A stretch of DNA of 37,266 nt, taken from Burkholderiaceae bacterium. Lineage in GTDB: Bacteria; Pseudomonadota; Gammaproteobacteria; Burkholderiales; Burkholderiaceae. Location of the stretch: assembly GCA_947450225.1 (NCBI GenBank), contig CANFUO010000011.1, positions 1-37,266 of the forward strand, read 5' to 3'. The position numbers and the translations under genes are program-made. Shown here in pieces: positions 1,439 through 28,663 of this stretch. The notes under the pieces are model-generated. The model was not told the origin of the DNA. It saw only the letters and a program-made list of their open reading frames with translations, and did not search any database. Every line of letters begins with the position of its first letter. Position 1 is the stretch's first letter.

Positions 1439-3352
1439 ATGAGTGACTTAAATGAAATCAATATGAAGCATGAGAATGTGTTGCACCAAATTCAATCCCC
1501 GGATGATTTACGAAAATTATCTCGCGAAGATTTACCTCAGCTAGCACAAGAGTTAAGGGCATTTATTCTAGACTCCGTTTCTAGTACGGGAGGCCATTTG
1601 TCCTCTAACTTAGGAACAGTAGAACTCACAATCGCTTTGCATTACGTTTTTACAACCCCAGATGATCGACTGATATGGGATGTTGGTCATCAAAGTTATG
1701 CACATAAAATTTTGACGGGTAGACGTGAATTGATGCATACCTTAAGAAAATTAGGTGGTATTTCAGGATTTCCGCGTCGCTCAGAAAGTATTTACGATAC
1801 GTTTGGAACGGCACACTCATCCACGAGTATTTCTGCGGCGATGGGTATGGCAAGAGCCTTTCAAACAAAAAATGAAAAACAGGTTGCAATTGCTGTCATC
1901 GGTGACGGTGCAATGAGTGCGGGCATGGCATTTGAAGCATTAAACAATGCAGGCGTATATACAGATTTGCCACTGATTGTGATACTCAATGATAACGATA
2001 TGTCTATTTCTCCGGCGGTTGGAGCCCTCAATCGCTATTTGGCGAGATTAATGAGCGGTAGTTTTTATGCCAACACAAAAAAGGGCATCGATTCAGTATT
2101 GTCTATGGCGCCACCATTACGAGAGTTTGCTAAAAGACTTGAAGAACATGCCAAAGGCATGGTTGTTCCAGGAACTATTTTTGAGGAGTTTGGATTTAAT
2201 TACATTGGGCCCATCGATGGGCATGACTTAGATTCTTTAGTACCGACTTTGCAAAATGTAAAAAGGTTAGCTTTAGCGGGAGAGGGGCCACAGTTTTTAC
2301 ATATAGTGACGAAGAAGGGTCAGGGATATAAGCTTGCAGAAGCAGACCCTGTGCTGTATCACGGACCAGGAAAATTTGACCCAAGCACAGGAATTTTAGC
2401 TTCAACCACGCCAGCAAAAAAAACTTTTACGCAGATATTTGGCGAATGGATGTGTGATCAGGCTGCAGTTGATGAGCGGCTGATTGGCATCACCCCGGCC
2501 ATGCGTGAAGGGTCAGGCTTAGTTGCATTTGAAAAACGCTTCCCTAAGCGTTATTACGATGTTGGGATTGCTGAACAACATGCAGTAACATTTGCTGCGG
2601 GCCTTGCTTGTGAAGGATTAAAGCCGGTGGTGGCCATTTACTCTACGTTTTTACAAAGAGGCTATGACCAGTTAATTCATGATGTTGCTTTACAAGATTT
2701 GCCCGTTGTATTTGCCCTAGACCGAGCTGGAATTGTTGGTGCAGATGGTGCCACCCATGCTGGTGCATTTGACATACCTTTCTTGCGTTGCATCCCGAAC
2801 ATGGTCATTATGACGCCTGCAGATGAGCGAGAATGCCGTCAATTGTTATCAACCGCCTACAGCTTAAAGCATCCTTCTGCCGTACGATATCCGCGTGGGA
2901 CTGGCGTTGGCATTACTCCCTTATCCAACTTAGAAGTATTACCTGTGGGTATTGCAAAAATGGAGAGATTATCTCAACAAGGGGCAGGAAAAAGATTGGC
3001 AATTTTGTGTTTTGGAACTTTGCTTTACCCTGCCATAGAGGTGGGTAAGAACATTGATGCCACTGTGGTCAATATGCGATTTGTTAAGCCCCTAGACGAG
3101 CAACTATTACTCCAAATGGGGCGCGAATATGATGGATTTATATCCTTGGAGGATGGCGTTATTGCTGGCGGTGCTGGTAGCGCTTGTGCAGAATTTTTAA
3201 TGAAATCAAATATTTGTAAGCCATTCTTGCAACTTGGATTACCGGATCAATTTATCGATCATGGAGATCCAGGCTTATTGATGGCGCAATGCGGGTTAGA
3301 TGCAATAGGTATCGAAAAATCGATTCGCAACTTCTTTTTCAAACCCGAATAA
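1439..3352 (+). CDS. dxs: 1-deoxy-D-xylulose-5-phosphate synthase
   Basis: The 637-residue thiamine diphosphate enzyme condenses pyruvate and glyceraldehyde 3-phosphate in the first step of the MEP isoprenoid pathway. Visible features are GGHLSSNLG (51-59), [11 protein letters not shown] (80-90), the ThDP/Mg motif [18 protein letters not shown] starting at 155, then the pyrimidine-domain [13 protein letters not shown] and ADGATHAG. Length is typical (about 620-640). No clear ribosome binding site precedes the ATG at 1439; a second in-frame ATG at 1463 (residue 9) is possible. An 87-base gap separates it from ispA. Folate gene folE2 follows after 33 bases. Confidence 0.97.
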
Positions 3353-3385
3353 GTAGAATCACTGGATTTCTAGGACAATAGCGAT

Positions 3386-4204
3386 ATGAACGTAATAAAA
3401 AATGATAATTTAAGTACAACTGCCATGGCAGATGTTCAATCCAGTGCTGACGACCGCAATTTGTCCATTGAGCAAGTTGGTGTGCGCAACATTCGCTTTC
3501 CGATCATGGTGCAAGGTGAATCGGGCGTGATGCCTTCAATTGCGCAGTTTAATTTAAATGTAGCCCTACCAGCGCATCAAAAGGGTACGCATATGTCGCG
3601 GTTTATGGCGCTCTTGCAAGAGGCTAAAGAGCCAATCAGTGCGACAAGTTTAGGAGCTTTGATTAAAAAAATGCTCCCCTTACTTGAAGCCAAAAAAGGC
3701 ATGATTGAATTAAGCTACGCACATTTTGTGAATAAGAAAGCACCGATTTCAGGCATACAAAGCATGATGGATTACCAAGTCACTTGGACATGTTTTGCAG
3801 AAGAGCATAGTAATGAGATGCATGTGGTTAACTTCTTAAAAGTACAAGTGCCAGTGATGAGTTTATGCCCTTGCTCTAAAGAGATCTCTGATTATGGGGC
3901 ACACAATCAGCGCTCACATGTAGTGATTGAAGTTCAATTAAAAAAAGATGCTTCTATGTTCGTTGAAGAGTTAATCGATATAGCCGAAGCACAAGCTTCT
4001 TGTGAGTTATGGGGTCTGCTCAAGCGGACCGATGAAAAGTATGTAACTGAAAAATCTTATGAAAATCCAAAGTTTGTAGAGGATTTAGTGCGAGACGTTG
4101 CTAGTCAAGTGGCGCAGTTAAAGAACATCGTTTCATATGACGTAGAAGCTGAGAATTTTGAATCAATCCATAATCACAGCGCTTTTGCCAGAATTAGTTC
4201 TTAG
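3386..4204 (+). CDS. folE2: GTP cyclohydrolase FolE2 (type IB)
   Basis: The 272-residue enzyme converts GTP to dihydroneopterin triphosphate, the first step of folate synthesis. It is the metal-flexible IB type, unrelated in sequence to FolE. The signature is [20 protein letters not shown] around residues 159-178, with the metal-binding cysteine and histidine, and KGTHMSRF at 66-73. AGGA about nine bases upstream supports the ATG at 3386. It follows dxs closely and converges with tsaD, their 3' ends overlapping by four bases. Confidence 0.96.
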
Positions 4205-11876: not shown

Positions 11877-12965
11877 CTAGATAGCATACAACTGTCGTGA
11901 CATCCAATCTGCTGTTTGATCCCGATAGCGATACCAAAGGTTGTTTACTACATGGTTGCCGCCAGCAATAATCGAAAGTTCGCATGGCCCCGATACTTCA
12001 GCCGCGAGTAATTTTGCTTGTTCCACAGGCGTTAATCGATCCCTATCACCCGCCACAATATAGATTGGACAGGTAATATTTTTAGCGATGCCTTTTAAAG
12101 ACATGCGTAAGGCTACTTTTCCAGCCTCTTCTAAATTTGCACTTTTACTTCTAATTCGAAATGCTTCTACATTGATTACTGGTCTACCGTCGAAGTTTGA
12201 CGAACGTTGATATGCTCCTGAGAGCGCGACACAGGCTTTAATTCGTTTTTCAAAACAAGCGGCTCTTGGTGCTAAATGACCGCCTAAAGAAACTCCCCAA
12301 ATTCCGATTCTATTTTGATCAATATCTGACCTGGTTTCTAAATAGTCACATACGGCTTTAACTGGCACCTCAAATTCGGGGCACAAAGGAAAATCATATT
12401 CTCCTTCCCCTTGTCCTGGCCCATCAAAAGCCAAGGTCGCTAAACCGCGCACTAAAAACCTATTTTCATAATCGTCCATTTCCTCTTTTGCAGAGTCAAG
12501 CCCCATACACATAACCACTATTGGTGGATTTTCTATTCCAAGAGGCTTTCTTAAATTACCATATAAAAATTTACCCTGATATGGGATGGCTACTCTTTCA
12601 CCAGGTGGTTTTAAATGTGGTAATGCTAAATTTCGACACTCTACAGCTTTCATATTTGCTTGACGCATTTGCACCAAATCATTAACAAATAAAAACTTAC
12701 CAAAGTGATAACAGACGGCTGCACGTGTCCAGTGTTGACTCGCAGAATATGTATAGCCTTCGTTAAAGGCCTCGTGCCCCAATTCCTCATGGATTGCCGC
12801 TCTTTGCGACCAGGCACTGCACCAATCATCCCAATGTTGCAGGCTTGCCGTAACCTCTAAAAAATCGGTCATTGGAACACCATTGGCTACAAAGCGCGGC
12901 GCCCAATGCGAAATAGCTGATTCTATACGTGGGTCTTTATTCTGTTCGTTTGTGGTTTGAGTCAT
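11877..12965 (-). CDS. Alpha/beta hydrolase, 2,6-dihydroxypseudooxynicotine-hydrolase-like
   Basis: The 362-residue hydrolase has an N-terminal helical cap (about 1-125) and a C-terminal alpha/beta hydrolase core. The nucleophile elbow GVSLGG is at 224-229 with Ser226; the acid is Asp307 or Asp309 in AGDRDRLTP; the base is His338 in GGNHVV. LAFDGPGQGEGEYD at 178-191 is typical of the group that includes the C-C bond hydrolase of Arthrobacter nicotine breakdown. It has no signal peptide. Its start is one base after the stop of the Bug-type binding protein gene, so the two are cotranscribed, which suggests the hydrolase acts on what that protein captures. A paralogue lies at 25055-26230. Exact substrate unknown. 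Confidence 0.85.
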   Translation of the reverse strand: MTQTTNEQNKDPRIESAISHWAPRFVANGVPMTDFLEVTASLQHWDDWCSAWSQRAAIHEELGHEAFNEGYTYSASQHWTRAAVCYHFGKFLFVNDLVQMRQANMKAVECRNLALPHLKPPGERVAIPYQGKFLYGNLRKPLGIENPPIVVMCMGLDSAKEEMDDYENRFLVRGLATLAFDGPGQGEGEYDFPLCPEFEVPVKAVCDYLETRSDIDQNRIGIWGVSLGGHLAPRAACFEKRIKACVALSGAYQRSSNFDGRPVINVEAFRIRSKSANLEEAGKVALRMSLKGIAKNITCPIYIVAGDRDRLTPVEQAKLLAAEVSGPCELSIIAGGNHVVNNLWYRYRDQTADWMSRQLYAI

Positions 12966-24448: not shown

Positions 24449-24853
24449 TTAGTTAGTGCCACTGCCGCCCAAATATCCACAGCAATTAATTTCAACACGC
24501 GTTGGCGGCTGGGCCTTAGGGCTACCTACTCTTGATACCTGTATGAGTGTAGAACAGGGAAAGTCACCAGAAAAAAACTCTTGCCGTGCACGCCAAATAT
24601 CCTGATTCTCATTTAAGTCGATGAGGAAGATTTGCATCGACATGATATCGTTCATTACTCCACCAGCAGCCTTAATCAAATCTTGAATATCAGTAAAAAT
24701 TTGCTTAGCTTGTTCGTAAGTATTTGCGCCATCTGCAACCATGCCAGCGACATAAAAGTGGCCATTTGTATGAATCTTCATATTTGACCAAGTTTGCGGC
24801 GGAGGTGCGGGAACTTTAGAACCTGTAGGGACGTTTATCGTTTTGTAGCTCAT
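24449..24853 (-). CDS. RidA/YjgF-family protein lacking the usual arginine
   Basis: From ATG at 24853 the protein has 134 residues, the normal RidA size; a frame extension upstream to 24898 adds 15 residues that do not fit the family. Family features are GHFYVAGMVADG, YEQAKQIFTDIQDLIKAAGG and the C-terminal RVEINCCGYL. Where the imine-hydrolysing RidA has Pro-x-Arg before the Val-Glu-Val strand, this protein has PCSTLIQV, so the key arginine is replaced. It is likely a Rid subfamily with another role. It heads a unit with a Bug-type binding protein and is divergent from an alpha/beta hydrolase. Confidence 0.85.
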   Translation of the reverse strand: MSYKTINVPTGSKVPAPPPQTWSNMKIHTNGHFYVAGMVADGANTYEQAKQIFTDIQDLIKAAGGVMNDIMSMQIFLIDLNENQDIWRARQEFFSGDFPCSTLIQVSRVGSPKAQPPTRVEINCCGYLGGSGTN

Positions 24854-25054
24854 TTGGGCTTTCACTTTAAGAGTTAATCTAAAATTCACTCTAAACAATT
24901 AGATCACCCAATGTCAAGAGGAAAACCCTTGCCCACAAAAAATGACTGATTAGGTACCACAGTTTGCCGATGACTGCATTCAGAAAAATTATGCAAAGTT
25001 TGGTAAATTAGGAGGCTATAAACATTTCAAACAACAATTAAAAGGTACAAATTT

Positions 25055-26230
25055 ATGAATAATGGCACTCCAGGTCGATATGAACCCTTTGGCTGGCATC
25101 ACTGGCCGGATCATTTTTTTATGTCATATCAATTTAGGCGGACATTAGGGGAAACACAGGAGGGTGGCGGTGCTGTTAGTGAGTGTTTTCAAGCAGCAGA
25201 TCGCATGATTCCTGGAGACCTGGAAAGTTGGCATAAGGAGTGGATGGTTGTTGCTGACCGCAATGATGCTAAAGGCGATCTTGCAGAAAAAAATGGGCAT
25301 ATTCAGACCGCGATGAATTGTTGGTTAAGGGCAACTGAGTATTACAGGTCCGCAGAATTTTGGTTAGATGCGGATGATCCAAGAAGACTTCCTACTTTTA
25401 CCAAGTGCGAGAATGCATCGCATAAGTGGCTGAAGTATCTTCCAGGCGAAGTAGTTGAAATTCCGTATGAAGATGGAAAAACCTTACCAGCCTATTTTAT
25501 TAAGTCACCTGTTGGTGGAGAGCGTCAACCCGTCTTGATTTCCTTTGGTGGTTTAGATTCTTTTAAAGATGAGTTGTGGTTTATGACAGGAAGAGGCGCA
25601 GTACAGCGCGGCATTTCTGTTTTATTAGTGGATGGACCAGGGCAAGGAGGGGCTTTGCGACGTCAGGGAATCGTCTCCCGCTATGATTATGAAGTTCCCG
25701 TAGGTCGTTGTATTGATTGGCTAGAGCAACGTTCGGATATTGATCCAAAAAGAATTGCGGTGAGTGGATCGAGTATGGGAGGATATTACGCAGCAAGAGC
25801 CGGGTCAATGGAGCATCGTTTAGCGGCATGTATCTCTCATGGAGCAATCTGGGACATTGAAAAACGTTTTGCCGATCGCGGAGAGGATCACGCTCTTGCA
25901 GGACATATGAAGTGGGTTATTGGTGCTAATAGCATGGCTGAAGCGGTCAAGAAGGCTAGTAAATTTAAGCTTGAAGGTGTTTTAGATCATATGCAATGTC
26001 CTTATTTGGTATTACATGGTGGGCATGATGTTTTAGGTGTAGAGACCGTTCAATTAGTACATGATTATGCAAAGTCAAAAGGTATTAATGTGACACTTCG
26101 TCTGACTTCTGCAGAAGAGACTGGAGCTGAGCATTGTCAGCATGACAACCCAACCCTAGGTCAGGAAATCATGATTGATTGGTTAGCAGATATTTTTGGT
26201 ATAGATCAGAAGAAATTCTTTAATCAATAA
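25055..26230 (+). CDS. Alpha/beta hydrolase, 2,6-dihydroxypseudooxynicotine-hydrolase-like (second copy)
   Basis: The protein of about 391 residues has the same layout as the hydrolase at 11877-12965: a helical N-terminal cap and a core with nucleophile elbow GSSMGG at 238-243 (Ser240), LLVDGPGQGGALRRQG, acid Asp324 in GGHDVLG and a histidine in AEHCQHDN near 359-362. The two share only moderate similarity, so they are paralogues with different substrates rather than a recent duplication. AAAGG precedes the ATG. It is divergent from the single-domain RidA gene and convergent with the triple RidA gene. Confidence 0.86.
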   Translation: MNNGTPGRYEPFGWHHWPDHFFMSYQFRRTLGETQEGGGAVSECFQAADRMIPGDLESWHKEWMVVADRNDAKGDLAEKNGHIQTAMNCWLRATEYYRSAEFWLDADDPRRLPTFTKCENASHKWLKYLPGEVVEIPYEDGKTLPAYFIKSPVGGERQPVLISFGGLDSFKDELWFMTGRGAVQRGISVLLVDGPGQGGALRRQGIVSRYDYEVPVGRCIDWLEQRSDIDPKRIAVSGSSMGGYYAARAGSMEHRLAACISHGAIWDIEKRFADRGEDHALAGHMKWVIGANSMAEAVKKASKFKLEGVLDHMQCPYLVLHGGHDVLGVETVQLVHDYAKSKGINVTLRLTSAEETGAEHCQHDNPTLGQEIMIDWLADIFGIDQKKFFNQ

Positions 26231-26362: not shown

Positions 26363-27610
26363 TTATTTTTTTGCAGCTGTTACATCTACCTGAACTTTGC
26401 AACCAGGAACCAAGAATTTCCCGACTTCTAGTGTAGTTCTTGGAGGTGGAGACGGAAAATACTCTTTCCAAATTTGGTCAAAGTAATAAAAGTCATTAAG
26501 ATCCGCTAAAAACACTTGAGCTTTTACTGTATCTGCAAGATCAAAGCCACCTTGTTGGTATAGTTTTTGTAAATTGGTCAGCACATAGTGTGTTTGTTTT
26601 TGAATTTCTGAACCGTAATAAGGGAAAGCACGATCCTGGTGTGCTACCTGGATTAAAGGTGTTTGATGATCAGATGCAATTTGTCCGCTGGCGTAGAGAG
26701 TGTCATTCACAATGACCCCATTACAAAAGGATTGTTGTTCTGCATTAGTTTGAAGAGTAATTTCTTTTTTTGGCGTGTTGGGTAAAACGCCCCACAAATC
26801 TATTTCGATACGACATCCTGGCACTAATAATTTTTGAACTTCAACCACAGTCCTCGGTAAAAGATGTTGAAAGTACTCTTTCCAAACTTGGTCAAAATAA
26901 AAGAAATCATTGAGGTCAGTTAAGAAGACTTGGGCTTTAACAACATCTTTAAAGTCGCAACCTGCAGCGTCAAAAACACTTTTAATATTATTTAAAATAT
27001 ATCTCGTTTGTTTTTGGATATCAGATCCATAGTAGGGAAAAGCAGGGTCTTGCTTGGCTTCAGGAGCAACGCCAGTTTGATAGTCTGAGGCGATTTGTCC
27101 TGCTGCATATAGAACATTTTCTATCAGAATACCTTGTGAGTAATGAGCCATTGGAGTAGGCGTTTTTTTACCGACAATGACTTGACGAGGCACTTTCGCT
27201 TGCACGCCCCACAGATCAATTTCTACTTTACAGCCAGGTACTAATAAGCCACCCACTTCAACAGTAGTTCTGGGGGGTGGTGATGGAAAAAACTCTTTCC
27301 AAATTTGATCAAAGTAATAGAAGTCATTTAAATCCGTTAAAAATACCTGCGCCTTCACTACATCGTTAAAGCTACTACCCGCACTTGTAAAAACGGATTG
27401 GATATTTTGCAAGACATACCTAGCTTGCTTTTGAATGTCAGATCCATAATAGGGGAAAGCTGGGGATTGTTTAGCCTCAGGTGGAACACCAGTTTGATAA
27501 TCAGACGCTATTTGTCCTGCAGCATAAATGGTGTTGCGATGGAGAACGCCTTGGCAGTAATGGGCCATTGGAGCGGGGGTTTTTTCGCCTTTAAGGATTT
27601 GGTTATTCAT
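26363..27610 (-). CDS. Three RidA domains fused in one chain (415 residues)
   Basis: RidA proteins are about 130 residues and act as homotrimers with active sites at the subunit interfaces, hydrolysing reactive enamines and imines. Here three domains lie in tandem: about 1-138, 139-278 and 279-415. Each has the set QIASDxQT, AFPYYGS(D/E)IQKQ, KAQVFLxDLNDFxYFDQxWKE and PRTxxEVxxxLVPGC, with the key arginine at 114, 253 and 391, a period of 138-139. Domains 1 and 2 keep TP(A/T)PMAHY(C/S)QG at their start; domain 3 has a changed NAEQQSFCNG instead. This suggests a single-chain trimer with altered third site. No signal peptide. It is divergent from the FGE-fold gene. Function unknown, perhaps deamination of a catabolic intermediate. 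Confidence 0.92.
   Translation of the reverse strand: MNNQILKGEKTPAPMAHYCQGVLHRNTIYAAGQIASDYQTGVPPEAKQSPAFPYYGSDIQKQARYVLQNIQSVFTSAGSSFNDVVKAQVFLTDLNDFYYFDQIWKEFFPSPPPRTTVEVGGLLVPGCKVEIDLWGVQAKVPRQVIVGKKTPTPMAHYSQGILIENVLYAAGQIASDYQTGVAPEAKQDPAFPYYGSDIQKQTRYILNNIKSVFDAAGCDFKDVVKAQVFLTDLNDFFYFDQVWKEYFQHLLPRTVVEVQKLLVPGCRIEIDLWGVLPNTPKKEITLQTNAEQQSFCNGVIVNDTLYASGQIASDHQTPLIQVAHQDRAFPYYGSEIQKQTHYVLTNLQKLYQQGGFDLADTVKAQVFLADLNDFYYFDQIWKEYFPSPPPRTTLEVGKFLVPGCKVQVDVTAAKK
26363..27610 (-). repeat. Threefold tandem coding repeat, unit about 415 bases
   Basis: Units at about 27610-27197, 27196-26777 and 26776-26363 encode the three RidA domains. Similarity is visible in DNA too, for example around 26461, 26878 and 27295, where CTTTCCAAA-TTGGTCAAA-like stretches recur. 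Differences between units show the duplications are old. Confidence 0.85.
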
Positions 27611-27790: not shown

Positions 27791-28663
27791 ATGTTGGGCT
27801 TAAAATACTTTTTTATATGGGGAAAAGAATTGTCTAATAGCGCTTTAGCAGAATATTTTGTTAGGAGAGGATGCTCAGTCATTCTAGCAATAGTTGTTTT
27901 CTTCGTATATGCACCAATAAACGCTAAAGAAAGTAAACCGTCAAAAATGATGGCGTTTATTTCAGAAGGAACTTTCACCATGGGATCCAATGTTGGGCCT
28001 GATGATGAAAAACCCCAACATACTGTTTATGTAAAATCATTTCATCTCGATATCCTACCTGTGAGTAATGCTGATTTTGCACAATTTCTCAATGAGAAAG
28101 GTCTACGGAATCAACAAGGTGAGACATTTTATGATGATGATGACGGTGATGCCAGAATTCATCGGCAAAACTCGACTTGGCGTGCTGATCTTGGTTATGA
28201 ATCACACCCAGTGAATGAAGTGAGTTGGGTGGGAGCGCGAGATTACTGTACATGGTTAAATAAAAGACTGCCTACAGAGGCTGAATGGGAAAAAGCCGCG
28301 CGTGGCACAGATGGTCGGAAATATCCCTGGGGTAATGCAGCACCGAATACAAAGCTAGCCCATTTTGGAGCTCCCTTTAACTCATCGGCGCCACGAGATG
28401 CATTCCCAGAAGGCGCAAGCCCATATGGGATTTTAGATATGGCCGGAAATCAATGGGAGTGGGTATCTAGTGCCTATCAACCCTATCCATACAAATCTGA
28501 TGATGGCAGAGAAAACCAAAATACGGGGCCAATACGATCTACTAGAGGTGGGGGACATGATTCACCACCTCAGGAAATTACGACTACTCAGCGAGGTAAA
28601 TATTTATCCCGAAGTCCTAAAGCTGGTCATCACAATATTGGCTTTCGCTGTGCAGGCTCCTGA
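27791..28663 (+). CDS. SUMF1/FGE-fold protein with N-terminal membrane anchor, NirV-like
   Basis: The 290-residue protein has a hydrophobic signal or anchor at about 28-44 and then an FGE-sulfatase fold: GTFTMGSNVGPDDEKPQHTVYV, VSNADFAQFL, HPVNEVSW, YCTWLNKRLPTEAEWEKAARG, YPWGN, GILDMAGNQWEWVSS, TRGGG and a final NIGFRCAG. The cysteine pair that makes formylglycine is absent from the TRGGG-GFR interval, so it is not a standard sulfatase activator. Proteins of this fold named NirV stand beside nirK in denitrifiers; a decayed copy of this gene lies beside nirK at 35081-35290. The ATG at 27791 lacks a ribosome site; a TTG near 27831 after GGGGAAAAGA is an alternative start. Confidence 0.82.
   Translation: MLGLKYFFIWGKELSNSALAEYFVRRGCSVILAIVVFFVYAPINAKESKPSKMMAFISEGTFTMGSNVGPDDEKPQHTVYVKSFHLDILPVSNADFAQFLNEKGLRNQQGETFYDDDDGDARIHRQNSTWRADLGYESHPVNEVSWVGARDYCTWLNKRLPTEAEWEKAARGTDGRKYPWGNAAPNTKLAHFGAPFNSSAPRDAFPEGASPYGILDMAGNQWEWVSSAYQPYPYKSDDGRENQNTGPIRSTRGGGHDSPPQEITTTQRGKYLSRSPKAGHHNIGFRCAGS

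Follow-up and report, generated by a model that had tools for sequence, protein, structure and literature searches.

The window analysed here, a stretch of 37,266 nucleotides from a freshwater bacterium, carries at positions 26363–27610 of the minus strand a gene for a triple-RidA (3x-RidA) protein of 415 amino acids, with the ATG at 27610 and the stop at 26363. These coordinates are as given in the initial annotation, from which the strand was absent. The chain consists of domain 1 (D1; 27197–27610, residues 1–138), domain 2 (D2; 26780–27196, residues 139–277) and domain 3 (D3; 26366–26779, residues 278–415), all encoded on the minus strand. The start-codon column is common to all 13 proteins of alignment A2, which was composed of the window protein and 12 loci from named genomes, loci L101 and L103 being left out. 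The initial annotation recognised three complete RidA domains in this one open reading frame, and both family libraries agree with it: Pfam returns three Ribonuc_L-PSP stretches (whole-protein E 9.6e-75), and NCBIfam returns TIGR00004 (Rid family) in three stretches, its 234 bits exceeding the cut-off of 106. When the domains were scored singly in a search of the window’s own genome, D1, D2 and D3 reached 93.1, 91.7 and 69.2 bits (family cut-off 27.3 bits).

Within the window gene, protein identity between the domains is 72% for D1–D2, 56% for D1–D3 and 50% for D2–D3. The corresponding DNA identities are 69, 59 and 55%, and the synonymous sites are saturated; therefore, the triplication is not a recent duplication. 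An assembly artefact or a chance repeat was ruled out because the triple is intact in many genomes, including 12 of the 14 loci of the named-genome scan.

In the window’s genus, which we infer to be Polynucleobacter, 12 of 186 genomes match the window protein at E <= 1e-20, ten of them with an intact triple and two with a piece at a contig end. The matching genomes are large (2.5–3.2 Mb) among the genomes with a listed size, to which 154 of those lacking a match do not belong, and at least one genome without the gene, G019, also has 2.6 Mb. Among the 14 loci of the named-genome scan are contigs whose titles read P. rarus and P. kasalickyi; four loci, at 64–73% identity, bear the titles Betaproteobacteria, Burkholderiales or Bordetella. 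The two loci without an intact triple are L103, which is cut by a contig end, and L101, in which the reading frame of the triple-RidA relative (2335–3762) is broken near position 3405; this contig belongs to a MAG, and the break may be a sequencing error. Some titles look doubtful for the genes carried, such as Thermoflexus hugenholtzii for L097 (88% identical) and Bordetella parapertussis for L099.

Beyond the genus, a mixed-alignment search of the order detected triples of any kind in 15 of 399 genomes and 5 of 158 genera, the window’s own genome counted; at most four candidates were scored per genome, so that copy numbers are lower bounds. A search for a single-domain ancestor in 369 genomes of the class (E <= 1e-20) gave, beyond the window’s own genome, only G668, where the contig end truncates the open reading frame, which bears the tail of a preceding domain. 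In the phylum sample of 398 genomes, the window’s own genome alone was found at E <= 1e-40, and two scans of viral contigs for RidA revealed no relative. In the plasmid tblastn search (793 records), 29 of the 30 matches listed are stretches the size of a single domain, onto which as many as three parts of the query align, and the remaining one, H30, spans two annotated RidA genes.

As for the general Rid background, PF01042 matched just once in 33 of 41 genomes sampled from the genus (the sample had a completeness floor of 98, with G000 included at 91). The window genome encodes four other Rid proteins besides the triple-RidA. Three of them lack the catalytic Arg (having Ser, or Gly/Ser depending on the alignment), and the fourth, presumably a Rid1-like sequence, appears to keep it in a weak alignment.

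The gene stands in a varied neighbourhood. At 132 bases from it, and convergent with it, lies a gene for an FrsA-like alpha/beta hydrolase of 391 amino acids (25055–26230, plus strand), for which the nearest PDB entries are 2,6-dihydroxy-pseudo-oxynicotine hydrolase (2jbw), an enzyme of nicotine breakdown, and, equally, SMU_737 (3fnb), both with E 2e-26. A 391-residue FrsA-like hydrolase likewise adjoins the gene in L090, L091 and L092, the three named relatives closest to it (93–94%), the orientation of the hydrolase being convergent in L090 and L092 and divergent in L091. A second FrsA-like alpha/beta hydrolase is encoded in the window at 11877–12965 on the minus strand. Between a TctC protein and the 391-residue hydrolase sits a single-domain Rid-like protein (24449–24898, minus strand) with Ser at the position of the RidA catalytic Arg, and a look-alike of it occurs at L092:7227–7631. 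On the other side, the triple-RidA gene is adjoined by a gene for an FGE-sulfatase (formylglycine-generating-enzyme-like) protein (27791–28663, plus strand).

In L096–L098, the upstream gene encodes a protein of about 350 residues, for which Pfam gave no family in L096, and the downstream genes encode a 2-hydroxyacid dehydrogenase and TctC proteins (assigned by Pfam in L096 and by sequence in the others). L093, L094 and L095 have neither the FrsA-like hydrolase nor neighbours of the L096–L098 type.

A different arrangement was found in L099, L100 and L102, the three relatives outside Polynucleobacter that have an intact triple, where the triple gene is directly preceded, on the same strand and at distances of 43, 37 and 25 bases, respectively, by an ABC ATPase gene that is the last gene of a branched-chain-type importer. 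Since simple gene calling often took the wrong strand in the GC-rich loci, the importer genes were checked using lists of open reading frames and Pfam. Upstream of the gene in L099, a GntR/FCD regulator comes first, followed by a Peripla_BP_6 binding protein, a pair of BPD_transp_2 permeases and ABC ATPase sequence that closes with the ATPase gene just named; in L102, Pfam revealed two ABC ATPases together with one permease, one binding protein and a regulator, and the L100 importer was checked for its two ATPases. For a divergently placed amidohydrolase of L102, the closest match is 8-oxoguanine deaminase, the score of 409 bits falling short of the cut-off of 532. In the partial G668 locus (L108), genes for a binding protein, two permeases and an ABC ATPase come after the gene on the same strand.

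No importer genes were found beside the triple gene in L101, the fifth relative outside Polynucleobacter, nor was such an importer seen in the examined flanks of the Polynucleobacter-type loci, as judged from the start of the called proteins. Because L101 lacks the importer and the examined flanks of the Polynucleobacter-type loci are importer-free and varied, there is no stable operon that would name the substrate. The neighbourhoods suggest the catabolism of an imported nitrogen compound in which an imine may be cleared by the triple-RidA.

The architecture itself is not new. The initial annotation regarded it as undescribed, and this claim has to be rejected, since Niehaus et al. (2015, PMC4433059) named 3x-RidA as a subset of RidA proteins with three tandem-fused RidA domains, exemplified by EF_0115 of Enterococcus faecalis, and presumed that the fused domains represent covalently linked units of a trimer; according to the same authors, Rid fusions of two or four domains exist and are rare. 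The window protein agrees with this subset, as described, in its three tandem-fused domains, and the accessible text of that account differs from ours in giving no domain asymmetry, activity or structure.

A solved analogue is AtzD, which belongs with TrzD and barbiturase to the Toblerone fold: Peat et al. (2013, PMC3758960) showed it to be a single chain of three YjgF-like units with threefold symmetry and traced it to a concatenation of trimeric YjgF-superfamily subunits. AtzD differs from the window protein in having its active site in the central barrel, with Ser–Lys dyads, and its units are only 9–18% identical (PMC3758960), while the window repeats are 50–72% identical and keep the cleft Arg. 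The related statement of the initial annotation, that no characterised case is known, is consistent with our literature searches, to which most subscription journals were out of reach and which found no enzymology or structure of any 3x-RidA; every chain among the PDB sequence matches listed has 194 residues or fewer. Thus, the architecture and the covalent-trimer idea are already known, and the new detail is the altered active site of the third copy.

The active-site residues of TdcF are Tyr17, Ser30, Asn88, Arg105 and Glu120 (PMC5979572). In AtRidA, the R165A variant retains 2.2% of activity, E180 is supplied by the neighbouring subunit, the E180A variant keeps at least a quarter of activity, and the trimer is held by the K136–E182 salt bridge (PMC4960622). 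The residues equivalent to those of TdcF are Y18, A31, N95, R114 and E130 in D1 of the window protein, Y157, A170, N234, R253 and E269 in D2, and F295, S308, N372, R391 and Q407 in D3, i.e., the Ser30 position is occupied by Ala in D1 and D2, and the equivalents of Tyr17 and Glu120 are present in these two domains and absent in D3. The key arginine had been noted earlier at residues 114, 253 and 391, and it is indeed kept there, with spacings of 139 and 138 residues; that description of the repeats was incomplete, however, as D3 lacks Glu and Tyr.

Among the 13 intact window-type proteins, the equivalent of TdcF Arg105 occurs in 39 of 39 domains. So does a Lys/Asp pair that corresponds, as residues, to K136–E182 of AtRidA and is represented in the window by K86/D132, K225/D271 and K363/D409, with Asp in place of the AtRidA Glu. 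The window protein thus shares with the RidA, TdcF and UK114 homotrimers the fold family, the Lys/acid residues of the trimer contact and, in D1 and D2, the Tyr, Asn, Arg and Glu of the site. It differs from them in having one chain instead of three; the stretch linking the third strand to the first helix is longer by 11–12 residues and the one separating Arg from Glu by one residue, Ala stands at the Ser30 position of both D1 and D2, and D3 is devoid of Tyr and Glu.

The asymmetry is constant within the Polynucleobacter type. In its ten intact proteins, Tyr and Glu are present in 20 of 20 D1 and D2 domains; in D3, the Tyr position is occupied by Phe in nine proteins and by Leu in one, Ser replaces Ala and Gln replaces Glu in all ten, and Arg and Asn are kept in all ten. 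This difference of D3 at three site positions (those of Tyr, Ser and Glu) is evidence that the site residues of one domain diverged independently of the other two, in keeping with the earlier suggestion that covalent fusion would free the individual sites. In L099, L100 and L102, Tyr and Glu are found in 9 of 9 domains, and the equivalent of Asn88 is lost in D3 of L099 (Gly) and in L102 (Ala, Asp and Asp). The L100 protein is symmetric: its three domains are 81–88% identical, and each has Tyr, Arg and Glu.

We consider it probable that the window gene encodes a single-chain 3x-RidA that most likely folds on itself as a RidA-type trimer and hydrolyses imines or enamines at three clefts. The RidA subunit would have been triplicated in one reading frame, reactive imines and enamines would be hydrolysed at the three domain–domain clefts, and the role of the protein would lie downstream of the uptake and breakdown of nitrogen compounds. 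Because Arg and Glu of a RidA site come from neighbouring subunits, the Glu-to-Gln change in D3 is expected to affect a single site out of three, and each chain would therefore possess two ordinary sites and one altered site.

The history of D3 can be read from its branch length and its present constraint. In the domain tree, the stem branch of D3 (three proteins) has 0.59 changes per column versus 0.18 for D1 and 0.20 for D2. The dN/dS ratios, computed for 8 of the 45 possible Polynucleobacter-type pairs, are 0.022–0.118 in D1, 0.014–0.048 in D2 and 0.028–0.078 in D3; these ratios are rough because many dS values exceed 1 (saturated), and two further pairs, with L099 and L100, gave infinite dS. 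All three domains are under purifying selection, D3 being about as constrained as the others, which means that D3 went through one episode of rapid change and has stayed constrained from then on. A fast stem branch followed by low dN/dS fits specialisation better than decay, although substitution by Ala at the Tyr17 and Glu120 equivalents had little effect in Salmonella enterica RidA (PMC4433059), where these residues are dispensable.

As a tentative extension, covalent fusion might have let one site be rebuilt in the Polynucleobacter lineage as Phe, Ser and Gln took the places of Tyr, Ala and Glu in D3; these replacements would then have become nearly fixed and given that one site a different specificity. 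One may alternatively suppose that D3 is mainly structural, completing the ring while turnover occurs only at the sites that do not use its Glu and Tyr. The loss of both residues in all ten Polynucleobacter-type proteins, together with the long D3 stem branch, is in line with this second possibility, which we nevertheless regard as somewhat doubtful, since Arg and Asn are retained in D3 of all ten proteins under a constraint similar to that of the other domains, and since changes of Tyr17 and Glu120 to Ala are mild in S. enterica RidA (PMC4433059).

The way in which the domains assemble was addressed by structure prediction. AlphaFold2 with the 13-row alignment gave a model of the window protein with pLDDT 68.4 and pTM 0.59, and a run led by the symmetric L100 protein gave pLDDT 69.9 and pTM 0.60. 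In both models, a broadly similar succession of strands and helices is repeated three times, with middling confidence and with the placement of the domains not fixed; neither model shows the trimer. The rows listed by Foldseek and VIA-align are Rid-family chains covering one domain only, the best fold match listed being RutC (3v4d; Z 9.6, 105 residues, rmsd 3.2). AtzD chains are absent among the best 50 of 432, 348 and 317 fold matches, which is no evidence either way.

This looseness of the models leaves room for chains that assemble with each other, for example, in a domain-swapped or hexamer-like manner, instead of forming a closed single-chain trimer, and the Rid relative AmnE is reported to be a homo-hexamer (PMC6742747). 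We consider such an assembly unlikely: the period of 138–139 residues with almost no linker fits a compact ring, without proving it, and the analogy with AtzD would point in the same direction. It is very improbable that the central barrel forms one new active site, as in AtzD, with the clefts unused and imine hydrolysis not being the role of the protein, for although AtzD demonstrates that concatenated YjgF-type units can be so repurposed (PMC3758960) and the neighbouring hydrolase resembles an enzyme acting on a ring compound, the cleft Arg is kept in 39 of 39 window-type domains, and neither Pfam (E <= 0.001) nor the names of 60 PDB sequences (E <= 1) included a member of the AtzD family.

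If the single-chain trimer reading is true, the family directly tests what the fusion of a homotrimer permits, and one rebuilt site among three would be something that a homotrimer cannot evolve. The symmetric L100 protein and the asymmetric Polynucleobacter-type proteins, with their changed D3, are comparable in one assay. We see the interest of the system as moderate, and it stems from the asymmetric third domain and from the symmetric relatives located beside an importer.

On the same condition, the Arg-less triple-Rid proteins found elsewhere in the order would add another example, perhaps from along the evolutionary route supposed for AtzD. These divergent triples (from G048, G239, G504 and other genomes) have about 424–446 amino acids and three Rid domains by alignment, in which they resemble the window protein. 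At least four of them are encoded in one genome, G048 (L038:4429–5754, L039:4647–5966, L040:4865–6139 and L041:4496–5767); these four are 22–24% identical to the window protein, and divergent triples are present as well at L070, L073 and L084. All of these loci belong to other families of the order. Pfam detects three stretches in L038 and L084, two in L039 and L040, and one in L041.

Unlike the window type, the divergent triples have lost the catalytic Arg, which is missing by alignment from 21 of 21 domains in seven proteins, although the alignment of three D2 domains is loose at this column, with another Arg within four columns. The two types also differ in the domain tree, which was built from 61 of 67 rows, the six L090 and L095 domains being omitted as near-copies and L091, L092, L094, L097 and L098 never having been part of the set. 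All 19 window-type domains fall in a single clade (97/85), while D1, D2 and D3 of the seven divergent triples form three separate clades (100/100, 99/95 and 100/99). By this grouping, a single triplication common to both types is the less likely reading, but a joint clade of the window-type D3 and the divergent D3, a group named post hoc, was rejected only at p 0.039, and the tree contains long branches.

A third kind of triple-Rid is encoded at L059:1411–2685 in G103, a genome that belongs to the window’s genus and has the window type too. It keeps Arg in D1 and D2 only, and its domains, all on long branches, scatter in the tree, D2 being placed beside the window type (93/79) and D1 and D3 among the divergent sets. 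Two of the divergent triples (L011/L038 and L037/L039) adjoin TctC proteins, as identified by Pfam.
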